Shown here one piece after another: positions 48,855 through 55,133 of a stretch of DNA of 64,000 nt. Both the position numbers and the translations under genes were made by a program. Below the pieces are notes generated by a model that was not told the origin of the DNA, did not search any database, and saw only the letters and a program-made list of their open reading frames with translations. Location: contig JAHDWA010000007.1 in assembly GCA_023382535.1 (NCBI GenBank), positions 194,449 to 258,448 on the forward strand. Direction: 5' to 3'. The DNA is from Anaerolineae bacterium. Its GTDB lineage: Bacteria; Chloroflexota; Anaerolineae; 4572-78; J111. Each line of letters starts with the position of its first letter. Within the stretch, counting starts at the first letter, position 1.

Positions 48855-50351
48855 ATGAAAGTTCGCCAACAAATTCATAGCGTATTGCTGCTGATTATTC
48901 TGGTCAGCATCGCATGCACTATTCGGATGCCGGAAAACATGGCCCGGTACGCCACGCCAAGTCCCGGTGTACTGACCGAGCCCACTGTTGTCCAATCTGC
49001 CAACCCTGAAGTCGTTGCTACCTCGGTGATAAGCAATGCACTCGAGCTGACCACACCTGAGGTTGAGCCGTCGCCTACCCCTCCTGCTGTCGCCCTCATC
49101 GAGCCTCCCTCCACCCCCTCTACCCTCGATATTGAACCACCTGTGCCTGCCGCTTTAGCCGAACTGACCGTTGACTCGCTGGTCAAGGAAGCGCAGTTTG
49201 CAACCACCGTTTCCGTTGAAACCATCAATCAGCTTCAGGCCAAATTTTATCCGGCCAACAACCAGGTGCCGGCGCAATTCGCAGTTGACCGCTTTAAGGT
49301 ACGTTTCAAGAGTAGAAATGAAATGGGGCATTGGGTTTCGATCCGCGCCGAGATGTTTGTGCCCAGAGTAGATACCCCGGCTGAGTTTCCGCTCTTTGTC
49401 TACGGGGCAGGCACAACGGGGATCAGCAATCTATGCGCGCCGCTGGATGAGGATAGTCGCGGGCGCAACTGGGGCCAATACCAAATCCATCTGCTCTCCT
49501 ACGCCGCCCAAGGTTTCATCACCGTCTTGCCCCACTGGCAAGGCTATGATGATCAAACCCGCAAACACAATTATTTTATTGCCCAGCTCGAAGCCTCGAT
49601 CCTGCTTGATGCGACGCGGGCCACCTATGAGCTGTTCAACAAAAACCTGCTGGCCAACGTTCTGGCGCGACCTGCCCAGGCAGTCTTTTACGGGGGTTAC
49701 TCGCAAGGCGGGCATGGCGCTTTCGCCGCGCTGGATGAGGCCAGCAGCTACGCGCCGGAGTTGCCGATCAGGGGTGTGGTTGGCCACGCTACTGCACCCA
49801 ATGTTGAAGCTCTGCTGCGCGAACGGCCGCCGCTCGCCCCCTACATTGTTTATGCTTATCTCAACTATTATGGGGATGAGGTGATCAGTCCCGAAGCTGT
49901 GTTTTTACCCAATTGGGTGCCCACCTTTTTTAGCGATGCTTCAACTAAATGTGTGGATGAGGCGTATGAGTATTATCCCGCAGACCCGAAGCTGCTCTAC
50001 CGGCCGGAATTTTTCGAGTCGTTGTACGGCGACCGGCTCGCCGAAAGATATCCAGCCTTCAAAGAAGCACTTGAACTTAATTATGTGGGCAACTCGCCCG
50101 ACACGAGCGTGCCGGTTGTTCTATTCCACGGAGAGACGGATACCATTGTTACCCCGGAAACTCACGAGGGCTTTGTCGCTCGTTTGTGCAACCTGGGCAA
50201 AAACGTCAACTACAAGCTTTACCCAGAGGTAAACCACTTCCGAACACGTCAAGCCAGCTTTACCGATTCGGTCGCCTGGATGCGTAACGTCTTGAACGGG
50301 CAGCTCCCCGCGTCGCAGTGTTCAGACTTTTTCAACAGTAAATTTCAATAA
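48855..50351 (+). CDS. secreted lipase-like alpha/beta hydrolase lipoprotein
   Basis: 498 residues. A lipoprotein signal (VLLLIILVSIAC, Cys21) is followed by a Pro/Ser/Thr/Glu-rich linker to about residue 100, then an alpha/beta hydrolase resembling secretory (fungal LIP-type) lipases. The likely triad is Ser283 (GGYSQGGHGAF), Asp429 (HGETDTIVTPE) and His461 (EVNHFR). Related phrases, such as YGAGTTG, LCAPLDEDSRGRNWG and GYDDQTR, recur in the C-terminal half of the protein encoded at 51918-54275, so the two are paralogues. It would be anchored on the outer side and hydrolyse an ester. Confidence 0.82.
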   Translation: MKVRQQIHSVLLLIILVSIACTIRMPENMARYATPSPGVLTEPTVVQSANPEVVATSVISNALELTTPEVEPSPTPPAVALIEPPSTPSTLDIEPPVPAALAELTVDSLVKEAQFATTVSVETINQLQAKFYPANNQVPAQFAVDRFKVRFKSRNEMGHWVSIRAEMFVPRVDTPAEFPLFVYGAGTTGISNLCAPLDEDSRGRNWGQYQIHLLSYAAQGFITVLPHWQGYDDQTRKHNYFIAQLEASILLDATRATYELFNKNLLANVLARPAQAVFYGGYSQGGHGAFAALDEASSYAPELPIRGVVGHATAPNVEALLRERPPLAPYIVYAYLNYYGDEVISPEAVFLPNWVPTFFSDASTKCVDEAYEYYPADPKLLYRPEFFESLYGDRLAERYPAFKEALELNYVGNSPDTSVPVVLFHGETDTIVTPETHEGFVARLCNLGKNVNYKLYPEVNHFRTRQASFTDSVAWMRNVLNGQLPASQCSDFFNSKFQ

Positions 50352-51917: not shown

Positions 51918-54275
51918 CTATTCGCTGGTCAGGTTAGCGCAGTTCGACTCAGGCAAGTTGCCGCTGGCTACACTTTCTATCCAGTTGATGGTATCTCTAA
52001 AACTGGCCCGCCGGATATTGGGGTGACTCACCGCCGGATAGCTGAGGTAGGTAACATGGGCGCCGGCCTGACACAGGCTGGCAGCAAATTGTATTTGGCT
52101 GGGCGGCGTCACAATCTGGTCGGCTGTGCCCTGGAGAATGAGCACCGGGATTTCAATCCCGTCTCGCGCCAAGCCGGCGGCATTATCGTCAAGCGCTGCT
52201 TTGAAAGCCGGGACAACAGCTTGCAAGCGGCCGGCGTAGAGCGCGTCTATAAATTCGGGGCGATACATTTGCCGGGCGCTGTGGCCGTAGTAGGCAAAGA
52301 TATTATCAACACAGCGGGTCATTACATCGGCTTCAAAGCTGGCCAGCCAGCGATCCTGGAAAATATCGGCCGGATCAACTACCTCGGGGCCGTAAAAGTT
52401 ACGGTAGGTCTGCACGATGTAAGGGGTGAAAATAGCGTCTTCTTTCAACAGGGTTTCGATGTTGGTAGTCGGGCCGTGACCAATGACTCCCTTAAAAGGC
52501 AACTCCGGCGCATAACTGGCCGCGAAATCCCTGGCCGCAAAAACAGCATGCCCTCCGCTGGAGTAGCCCGCCATCACCACGGCCTCCAGGGGACGGGCCG
52601 CAGCCTGGGGTGATTCTTCAAAGAAGTTGTAAGCCGCCCGCGCCGCATCGAGCAAGGCCCGCGCCTGAAACTCGGAGATAAAGTAGGGGGTCGCCTGGTT
52701 AGCCTCGTCAAAACCCTGATAGTTGGGCAAAATGCCGATCAGCCCCTGGGCGGTGTATTCAAGCATGTAGCTGTGATACGCTCCCCAGTTACTCCCGCTG
52801 GACCACTCCAGCAGCGGGGCACACTGGTCGCCCAAACCGGTAGTGCCGGGAGCGTAGAGAAAAACAGGAAAATCAGTTTCCTCGGCAACCTGCGGTACGT
52901 AGAGATTCGCTTCGACCTCGGTGACGCGCTCATTCCGGTCTACCGTTCTGTAACGCAGACGATAGACCTCAATATTGTAATTGCCAACCGGTTCAAACGT
53001 CGTCCAAAATTCAGCCGAGACAAGCTGCCCTGCCTGTTGCTCGGCCAGCGAGCGCGGGGTGGCGGTCACCGGAACAACGCGGGTAGGGGACGGCGTTGGT
53101 TGGGCGGTCGAGGCCGGTTCAGTAGGCAGTGGGGTTGGGGTTAGCGTTGGCAGCGCCGTGGAAGTGCGTGCGGCTGGGGTTGATGTGGGCGACGGTTCCG
53201 GGCTTGGAGGGCCAGGCTCATTAATGGATGAAATATGGGGCGTGGGCGCATCATCAACATAGGTTGAGGTCAACGGCTTGGGTTGAGGCGGCTCGATGGC
53301 GGCGGCCAGGACTTTAGCGATATAGGTTTTGCCGTTTTCAGTCAGGTGCTCCGTATCAATAAAATTGTAGGCTTCCAGATCAAAGACCAAGTTTAGAACA
53401 TCAACCCCTTTTCGGCGCAGGACTCGCTCAACGACGGCTGTATTCTCAGCCAATCGCTGCTGAAACTCGTCGCCAAGATGAGTTTCCCCCAACTCGTAAT
53501 TGATGGGGGTGATGTAGAAGATGGGTTTGATGCCGTTTTCCAGGAGCAAGCGGCTGGTTGTTTTCAACGACTGGATCTTGGGGTGGTGCTGATCCAGGCG
53601 GTACATGTAGTAATAAACCAGCGTCGCCTTCAACGCCTCAACTTCATCCTCGGAGGGAATGCTGGCATGGTAAGCAAAATCGTTCGGACCGGCCTCAGGC
53701 TCTGTAGTGCTGGCCCCGATCAGTTCCTCAAATTCGGCCACCTCGCCGACGGGTTGGTCGCCGTTGAAGACAGCCGCCTCTCGAAAATCGGCCTGGCTAA
53801 TCGGCGAGTCAAACAGCCCGAAGGTGCCAAACATCCGGTAAAATATGGTTGAAAGCGTTGGGCCGTAAGTCAGGATGGTTTTTTCACGCTCAAACTGGTA
53901 AGTGGGGCGCAGGTCCCATTCCGGCGAAAATGAGCGCATATTAATGGGAATGATGACGGTCTCGACCTGGGATTTGTACTTGACCAGGTAATTTACGTAG
54001 CGTTCATACAAGTCCAGGTGGTAAGCCGGATGGGCTACATCGCCAATCGTATGGCTGGGCGCCAAATCTCGTAAAATCTCCGGGATGGTCGGCTCACCTT
54101 CAGGATAAATCAGGATGCTATCACCCAGATAGACCGTATCAACCCCTGCTTGTAGCTGTTGATCTAGCGCCAGGATTTCTTTGGGCAGCTCAGGCGGGAC
54201 CATGGCCGAGACAGCTACCTGAGCCACCAGCAGCAGGGCGATGAACGCCATCAGTTTTAGGAAAAAATTCCTCAC
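51918..54275 (-). CDS. fusion of SGNH/AlgX-like domain and secreted lipase-like domain
   Basis: 785 residues, GTG start at 54275. An N-terminal signal or anchor (FFLKLMAFIALLLVAQVAVSA) leads to an SGNH-type domain with Ser53 (YLGDSILI) and the Asp307/His310 pair (DTEHLTENG). A Pro/Ser/Thr-rich linker (about residues 340-415) joins it to an alpha/beta hydrolase related to that at 48855: YAPGTTGLGDQCAPLLEWSSG, the nucleophile elbow AGYSSGGHAVFAARD, and a C-terminal LQGTADQIVTPP and AVSHPNIR giving Asp and His. It is encoded eight bases upstream of the MBOAT gene. I infer that it receives the acyl group from MBOAT and either transfers or removes it outside the cell. Confidence 0.82.
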   Translation of the reverse strand: MRNFFLKLMAFIALLLVAQVAVSAMVPPELPKEILALDQQLQAGVDTVYLGDSILIYPEGEPTIPEILRDLAPSHTIGDVAHPAYHLDLYERYVNYLVKYKSQVETVIIPINMRSFSPEWDLRPTYQFEREKTILTYGPTLSTIFYRMFGTFGLFDSPISQADFREAAVFNGDQPVGEVAEFEELIGASTTEPEAGPNDFAYHASIPSEDEVEALKATLVYYYMYRLDQHHPKIQSLKTTSRLLLENGIKPIFYITPINYELGETHLGDEFQQRLAENTAVVERVLRRKGVDVLNLVFDLEAYNFIDTEHLTENGKTYIAKVLAAAIEPPQPKPLTSTYVDDAPTPHISSINEPGPPSPEPSPTSTPAARTSTALPTLTPTPLPTEPASTAQPTPSPTRVVPVTATPRSLAEQQAGQLVSAEFWTTFEPVGNYNIEVYRLRYRTVDRNERVTEVEANLYVPQVAEETDFPVFLYAPGTTGLGDQCAPLLEWSSGSNWGAYHSYMLEYTAQGLIGILPNYQGFDEANQATPYFISEFQARALLDAARAAYNFFEESPQAAARPLEAVVMAGYSSGGHAVFAARDFAASYAPELPFKGVIGHGPTTNIETLLKEDAIFTPYIVQTYRNFYGPEVVDPADIFQDRWLASFEADVMTRCVDNIFAYYGHSARQMYRPEFIDALYAGRLQAVVPAFKAALDDNAAGLARDGIEIPVLILQGTADQIVTPPSQIQFAASLCQAGAHVTYLSYPAVSHPNIRRASFRDTINWIESVASGNLPESNCANLTSE

Positions 54276-54503: not shown

Positions 54504-55133
54504 TTATTGATCATTCGCCAGCCGCTGTTTGACTTGTTGCACAATATCCAGCAAAGCCTCGAACGGCTGCGCCCCGGAGATCAGGTACTTCTGCTCGATG
54601 ATGGCGGCGGGGACACCCTGCAAGCCATATACCTGGGCCTGCCGGATGTCGGCATCAACCTGCGGCGCATAGGCTCTGTTCTTGACGGCGTCCAGAAATT
54701 CAGCGCGATCCAGCCCGACTTCGGCGGCCAAATCCCCCAGCGTTTCCGGATCGCCAAAATCGCGGTCCTCGACGAAGTGGGCTTTGAACATGGCCTCGTG
54801 ATAGGCCGGCCCGGCTCCTTTTTCCTCGGCGTACTTGGCCCCTTCCAGGGCCAGGCGCGATTTCACCCCCCAGCGATGGCTTTTCATCTCCACCCCGAAG
54901 CGTTCTTGAGCGATTTGCTGCACCTGCGGCCAGCCGGCCTCGATGCGTTCCCGGTAGGCTTTTGCAACCGCTTCCGGCAGCGGCGGCGCGTCCTGCGGGC
55001 GCAGTTCGTAACTTTTCCAGATGACTTCAATCCCTTCGGTTTGAGCGAGTCGGTCCAAACTGGCCTTAATCATATAGCACCAGGGTCAGACAAAGTCGCT
55101 CCAGACTTCGAACTTCAATTTCTGTAGACTCAT
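54504..55133 (-). CDS. DsbA/FrnE-family oxidoreductase with in-frame UGA at the first active-site Cys (candidate selenoprotein)
   Basis: Starting at ATG 55133 the frame reads MSLQKLKFEVWSDFV, then UGA (55088-55086), then PWCYMIKASLDRL and on to a normal end at 54504: 209 residues if the UGA is read. In FrnE/2-hydroxychromene isomerase-like DsbA proteins this place is SDFVCPWCY, so the UGA replaces the nucleophilic first Cys of CxxC (TGC to TGA) and Cys19 is the second. The rest is intact: GVPAAIIEQKYLISGAQPFE with the cis-Pro loop and no other stop. A small hairpin follows the UGA at a distance suited to bacterial SECIS. Otherwise it would be a nonsense mutation with re-start at the Met in CYMIK. 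The gene stands alone between the MBOAT unit and uvrA. Confidence 0.75.
55052..55065 (-). promoter_or_regulatory. SECIS-like hairpin downstream of the UGA
   Basis: On the minus-strand mRNA, bases +21 to +34 after the UGA fold as GG-CCA-[GUU]-UGG-(A)-CC: five base pairs, one bulged A and a three-base loop beginning with GU. Bacterial SECIS elements are short stem-loops within the reading frame just after the UGA, with a G among the first loop bases; the distance of about 25 bases to the loop is in the usual range as I know it. The stem is weak, so this is only suggestive. Confidence 0.4.

Follow-up and report, generated by a model that had tools for sequence, protein, structure and literature searches.

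An in-frame UGA at the catalytic cysteine position of a FrnE-like DsbA-family gene, conserved in Anaerolineae, marks a very probable member of a known selenoprotein family

Introduction

The stretch of DNA analysed here, 64 kb from an Anaerolineae bacterium (hereafter the window), carries on its minus strand a gene for a DsbA-family protein that is interrupted by an in-frame UGA, and the question it raises is whether this codon ends the protein or is read as selenocysteine (Sec). A first-pass annotation had called the gene a candidate selenoprotein, with no mention that a family of DsbA-like UXXC proteins, COG2761, is already known to contain Sec. We take COG2761 to be the FrnE group.

DsbA-like UXXC selenoproteins of COG2761 were described in 2005 in Sargasso Sea sequences (PMC1088965), and Sec-containing FrnE was described in 2019 from the green algae Mamiellophyceae and M. 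viride (PMC6627142). For DsbA-like proteins a 2006 table gives the number 4, and it assigns 3 selenoproteins of 3 families to the Chloroflexi (PMC1794560); the numbers in a table of 2016 are 41 and 45 (PMC5029168). A 2026 review of prokaryotic selenoproteins describes a DsbA-like protein form 1 with PF01323 and a UxxC motif; the words Chloroflexi, Chloroflexota, Anaerolineae and FrnE do not occur in its main text (PMC13188914). For the Anaerolineales, selenocysteine has been noted for formate dehydrogenase (PMC4959059). Among titles and the first lines of abstracts, no description of the gene in Chloroflexota was found. The Sec forms of the family have been in print since 2005, and to a specialist the present finding is not very surprising; what is added is the extension of the known DsbA-like selenoproteins through the Anaerolineae, a large class of Chloroflexota.

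The reading frame and its product

From the ATG at 55133 the minus-strand frame reads MSLQKLKFEVWSDFV-UGA-PWCYMIK and onwards, giving 209 residues including the UGA, and the frame stays intact for 193 further codons up to the TAA at 54504, as the first-pass annotation had claimed. Its expectation that gene-calling pipelines would report only a 189-residue piece was also borne out by the ORF list of the window, in which the gene is represented solely by the product of the ATG at 55073. The coordinates of the features are collected in Table 1.

Table 1. Features of the UGA-containing gene, in window coordinates.
Feature	Coordinates	Strand	Evidence
FrnE/DsbA-family oxidoreductase coding sequence with putative Sec at codon 16 (UPWC)	54504..55133	minus	frame, PF01323, FrnE alignment, motif column
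In-frame UGA, putative Sec codon, replacing the nucleophilic Cys of CPWC	55086..55088	minus	same codon in L001, L002 and related loci
Resolving Cys codon of UPWC, sole Cys codon of the frame	55077..55079	minus	translation
bSECIS-like hairpin core GGCCA-GUU-UGG(A)CC, loop 25 nt after the UGA	55052..55065	minus	conservation in a clade of 47 sequences
Truncated 189-aa ORF of plain gene calling, from the ATG after UPWCY	54504..55073	minus	ORF list; protein cluster P0002

The read-through protein matches PF01323 with an E-value of 5.7e-33 (114.8 bits against a cut-off of 25.6), which identifies a DsbA-like thioredoxin domain, and no NCBIfam model scored above its cut-off for it. The model NF041057, a Rcas_1661 family thioredoxin-like (seleno)lipoprotein that is also thioredoxin-like and may carry Sec, scored 27.8 bits, its cut-off being 190, and the protein does not belong to that family. 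The best solved relatives are the Deinococcus radiodurans FrnE structures 5cp1 and 5cnw (E 2.9e-28) and SCO1869 (3gl5), and the call to the FrnE subfamily was made from these PDB relatives. In the alignment with 5cp1/5cnw the UGA shares its column with the first CPWC cysteine of D. radiodurans FrnE, which has Cys and not Sec, so the earlier placement of the UGA exactly at the nucleophilic cysteine of a FrnE-type CxxC holds. Besides the UGA position, Cys19 is the only cysteine of the window protein, and inspection by eye revealed no apparent signal peptide.

The same truncation is seen in public protein data. The cluster P0002 has 189 aa and is 100% identical to the query across 90% of its length. 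A search of the protein database gave 1496 homologues; among the best 120 of these, the first 113 reach no more than 91% coverage of the query, and seven (P0115-P0121) reach 97-100% and carry CPWC, these seven also being the only ones of the best 120 with SDxxCPxC near the start, as judged from protein sequences only. Gene models of the family thus look systematically truncated and could be corrected.

Conservation of the UGA in related genomes

The same UGA is present in the Anaerolineales MAGs H5_CFX7 (locus L001, 92% identity) and H5_CFX5 (locus L002, 78% identity). Of 396 scanned genomes belonging to the same class, 272 gave a match, and in 65 the match, counted by hand at E<=1.2e-24, is interrupted by TGA. 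Down to ~28% identity, 64 of these 65 genomes have no second stop within the match, and the one exception, G087, has a TAG besides the TGA. We examined 87 sequences (the window, L001, L002, L021-L048 and L053-L108), and the motif was found in 73 of them, with UGA in 65 and Cys in 8 at the same column, the window included; in sequences with the motif the frame is kept on both sides of the UGA. Seven of the 14 sequences that the motif search missed were read individually, and UGA was found in L067, L106 and L107, Cys in L098, L099 and L103, and neither in L022.

Comparison with homologues had been proposed by the first-pass annotation, UGA or Cys in relatives counting in favour of its reading, and both are found. 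Its argument that a chance hit on this very codon is unlikely is strengthened by the recurrence of the UGA at this column in relatives. Of the observations that, by its account, would speak against Sec, two bear on these genomes: a sequencing error at the UGA, which is contradicted because the codon recurs in independent genomes, and random stops elsewhere in the gene in close relatives, to which the single second stop among the 65 UGA genomes gives little weight.

Three of the loci that the motif search missed have features of their own. L022 (in G271), with 68% identity over residues 24-205, has neither UGA nor CxxC in frame, and its N-terminus looks broken or misassembled. L106 (G048 C66, 32% identity) and L107 (G345 C68, 28% identity) are distant DsbA-family genes that read UVWC and UPFC, respectively, with the UGA at the first position of CxxC, which raises the possibility of Sec in additional DsbA subfamilies of the Anaerolineae.

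A SECIS-like hairpin behind the UGA

In the bacterial SECIS (bSECIS) model the element has a small apical loop with a G in its first two places, located 16-37 nt after the UGA (PMC13188914). The hairpin of the window, with a GUU loop at 25 nt, agrees with this description in both the apical-loop G and the distance. Its stem starts 20 nt after the UGA and has five pairs and one bulged A, the fourth pair being a G.A that is bridged by the bulge. Folded alone, the 50 nt of the window are no more stable than their shuffles (z 0.76; 154 of 200 shuffles fold at least as well), and the window hairpin therefore counts only by comparison with its relatives. The five-pair GUU hairpin that the first-pass annotation had described 20 bases after the UGA was thus found with the stated position and pairs and is conserved in its clade, but it contains a bulged A and is not significant by itself.

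The comparison was made in two clades of UGA genes. In clade I (47 sequences, window included) 229 of the 235 possible inner pairs, five per sequence, are formed, whereas synonymous-codon shuffles within each gene, which ignore kinship, gave 128.0±7.3 pairs and reached 229 in none of 500 trials. Stem positions show exchanges on both sides (C-G/G-C, C-G/U-A and U-A/G-C), and the loop 25 nt behind the UGA is GUU in 33 and GUC in 14 of the 47 sequences. Wherever a clade I gene has Ser at the loop (45 of the 47, the other 2 having Gly), the codon is AGU, compared with 30 of 380 Ser codons elsewhere in the same genes. In clade II (18 sequences) the loop lies at 20 nt and reads GGGYG in 16, the stem shows almost no variation, and 122 of 126 pairs form against 88.6±3.9 in synonymous shuffles that likewise ignore kinship, with 0 of 500 as high. 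At the same places the 8 Cys genes give no such signal, with 12 of 40 pairs (12.5 when shuffled) and 31 of 56 pairs (29.7 when shuffled). The hairpin is conserved beyond the demands of the protein sequence. General folding energy behind the UGA is mildly low in the 65 UGA genes (mean z -0.57 and -0.58); the case for a SECIS element is carried by the position-specific pair count. A looser hairpin finder also gave hairpins in 6 of the 8 Cys genes, did not discriminate between the forms and was dropped.

Selenocysteine machinery

Both sister genomes, H5_CFX7 (G001) and H5_CFX5 (G002), contain a tRNA-Sec with a UCA anticodon, selA and selD, and selB is whole in H5_CFX7 and split over several frames in H5_CFX5. 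On the strength of these sister genomes the organism of the window is predicted to possess the Sec machinery as well. The frame breaks in selB of H5_CFX5 (G002:C4:34134-36000) are probably assembly indels, possibly decay.

Among the 65 UGA genomes, selA (E<=1e-30) was detected in 58 and a strong tRNA-Sec in 58, both in 54 and at least one of them in 62, the limit for tRNA-Sec being set at E<=2e-11 since tRNA-Ser matches come as low as ~1e-8. The three UGA genomes with neither selA nor a strong tRNA-Sec are G337, G369 and G393; selB is found in G337 and G393, and selD in G369 and G393. Class-wide, selA at E<=1e-30 occurs in 320 and tRNA-Sec over the cut-off in 334 of the 396 genomes, and with the machinery so common, its co-occurrence with the UGA says little on its own. 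Both selA and tRNA-Sec are present in 5 of the 8 genomes in which the motif search identified the Cys form; G085 and G327 lack selA, a strong tRNA-Sec, selD and selB over the cut-off, and G272 lacks selA, a strong tRNA-Sec and selB over the cut-off and has selD. Genes absent from MAGs may be gaps. The presence of selA or tRNA-Sec in 62 of 65 UGA genomes versus 5 of 8 Cys genomes corresponds to a Fisher p of 0.015, a test that ignores kinship and for which the genome lists were compiled by hand.

The selD matches over the cut-off themselves contain one in-frame TGA in 10 of 11 cases, for example at G001:C1:1749411-1750346 and G002:C1:425335-426270, and SelD in those genomes is probably itself a selenoprotein; selD of G272, a genome without selA or selB over the cut-off, has no TGA.

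Alternative readings of the UGA

A conserved UGA could also be a scar, a sense codon of another kind or an upstream irrelevance, and the data above bear on all three. A change from TGC to TGA is a single step, the data come from MAGs, the N-terminus of L022 looks broken and G087 has its second stop, all of which would fit a Cys-type FrnE inactivated by one nonsense mutation. Such a pseudogene would hardly keep the same UGA in sister MAGs and through 64 of 65 genomes otherwise free of stops, with the frame maintained on either side of it and with compensatory changes in the hairpin. Furthermore, the 15 codons before the UGA differ between the window and L001 by 3 synonymous and 0 nonsynonymous changes; between the window and L002 the counts upstream of the UGA, 1 synonymous and 4 nonsynonymous, point the other way. 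We consider inactivation extremely improbable. Reassignment or general read-through of UGA in the lineage, for instance as Trp, Gly or Cys and with no role for selenium, would likewise yield a conserved in-frame UGA. UGA also serves as an ordinary stop, however: of 12 other window genes inspected, 6 end with it, as do 28 of the 65 UGA-containing genes, so the codon is not simply reassigned; it is moreover tied to a hairpin, and the sister genomes carry tRNA-Sec, selA and selD. The probability that we leave to reassignment is close to nil.

Translation could instead start at the Met behind UPWCY, as the 189-aa piece yielded by gene callers would have it, making the product a DsbA-fold protein with no CxxC and the upstream part a leader. 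This protein would lack both the active site and the first strand, and a Met within three residues after UxxC is present in only 8 of the 65 UGA genes. All 65 TGA genomes, in turn, have the stretch that precedes the UGA (WSDF, FSDY and similar), 64 as recognised by motif and one, at L067, by eye; the motif search required this stretch, whereas the scan by which the genomes were chosen did not. We regard an internal start as highly improbable. Random nonsense mutation, reassignment and internal start were accordingly rejected on UGA conservation, the hairpin, the UGA stops and the Met counts. The conserved UGA, the Cys homologues and the compensatory changes in the hairpin support the reading of the first-pass annotation, and the gene is very probably a selenoprotein gene, an added member of an already known selenoprotein family.

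Proposed mechanism and relation to known proteins

The analysis shows the frame, the UGA at the catalytic Cys, the conservation of UGA and hairpin, and Sec machinery in the sister genomes, and from these we conclude with high confidence that the product would be a single-domain FrnE/DsbA-type oxidoreductase, probably cytoplasmic, with Sec as the attacking and Cys19 as the resolving residue of UPWC. Sec insertion, redox direction, cellular location and regeneration are what we infer for it. The hairpin shortly after the UGA would be the binding site of SelB with its Sec-tRNA(UCA), and Sec would be inserted in place of chain termination. Disulfides or sulfenylated thiols of the substrate would then be the targets of the selenolate; the mixed selenide-sulfide would be resolved by Cys19, and a reductant from outside would regenerate the enzyme. 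D. radiodurans FrnE is a predicted cytoplasmic thiol oxidoreductase, proposed to act as a disulfide reductase, and it has a C-terminal CxxxxC for its regeneration, a motif that some FrnE proteins lack (PMC8945050); an outside reductant is suggested here because the window protein has no C-terminal CxxxxC.

By its description, the gene resembles the Sargasso COG2761 proteins, which are DsbA-like with Sec as the first residue of UxxC, have widespread Cys homologues and carry a bacterial SECIS behind the UGA; those were nine marine metagenome sequences, whereas the present set comes from genomes of one class, two named Anaerolineales MAGs among them, with the SECIS tested by covariation (PMC1088965). 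The algal FrnE likewise contains Sec, but it is eukaryotic and presumably uses the eukaryotic Sec machinery, the likeness again being one of description (PMC6627142). The DsbA-like form 1 of the 2026 review (example NIP15863.1) has, by its description, the Pfam family and motif of the window protein (PMC13188914).

Evolution of Sec and Cys forms

A tree built from 80 proteins, 65 with Sec and 15 with Cys, does not unite the Cys forms in one group, and the distribution requires 6 changes, at least 5 of them by well-supported branches, versus 14.0 for shuffled labels, the tree being one for which the tool gave a long-branch warning. The Cys form of G085 is sister to the Sec form of G057 with support of 100/99. 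We lean, with some reserve, towards a joint reading in which Sec would be the usual state of the FrnE-like enzyme in the Anaerolineae, kept over deep divergence in two sublineages with different SECIS designs (a GUY loop at 25 nt and a mostly GGGYG loop at 20 nt), and in which Cys would have replaced Sec on several occasions, in some of them at least with the Sec machinery being lost too; G085, whose Cys form is nested among Sec forms, would be such a case. If this is true, the two SECIS designs would represent two separate gains of Sec or a SECIS that has moved, and the Anaerolineae would offer a natural test-bed for the exchange of Sec and Cys in one enzyme. The many natural Sec and Cys versions, whose RNA signals can be compared, bear on why Sec is kept or lost.

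Gene neighbourhood

Upstream of the gene, uvrA lies divergently in both the window and L001, with a 945-aa gene intervening in L001 (gene names by eye). The next downstream genes are common to the window and L001, and the neighbours in L002 differ. We claim no operon partner, since L002 has other neighbours and the upstream region of L001 differs. PADLOC gave no hit, and a role in anti-phage defence was rejected. When the window was inspected by eye for further UGA codons at UxxC/CxxU-like motifs, none but that at 55088 had the look of a redox motif within a coding sequence. An Rfam search of the window returned only a tRNA, which ARAGORN identifies as tRNA-Gly. Elsewhere in the window, the genes at 48855-50351 and 51918-54275 look, by eye, paralogous in their hydrolase-like C-terminal parts and flank an acyltransferase-like gene, and this trio is also present in L001.
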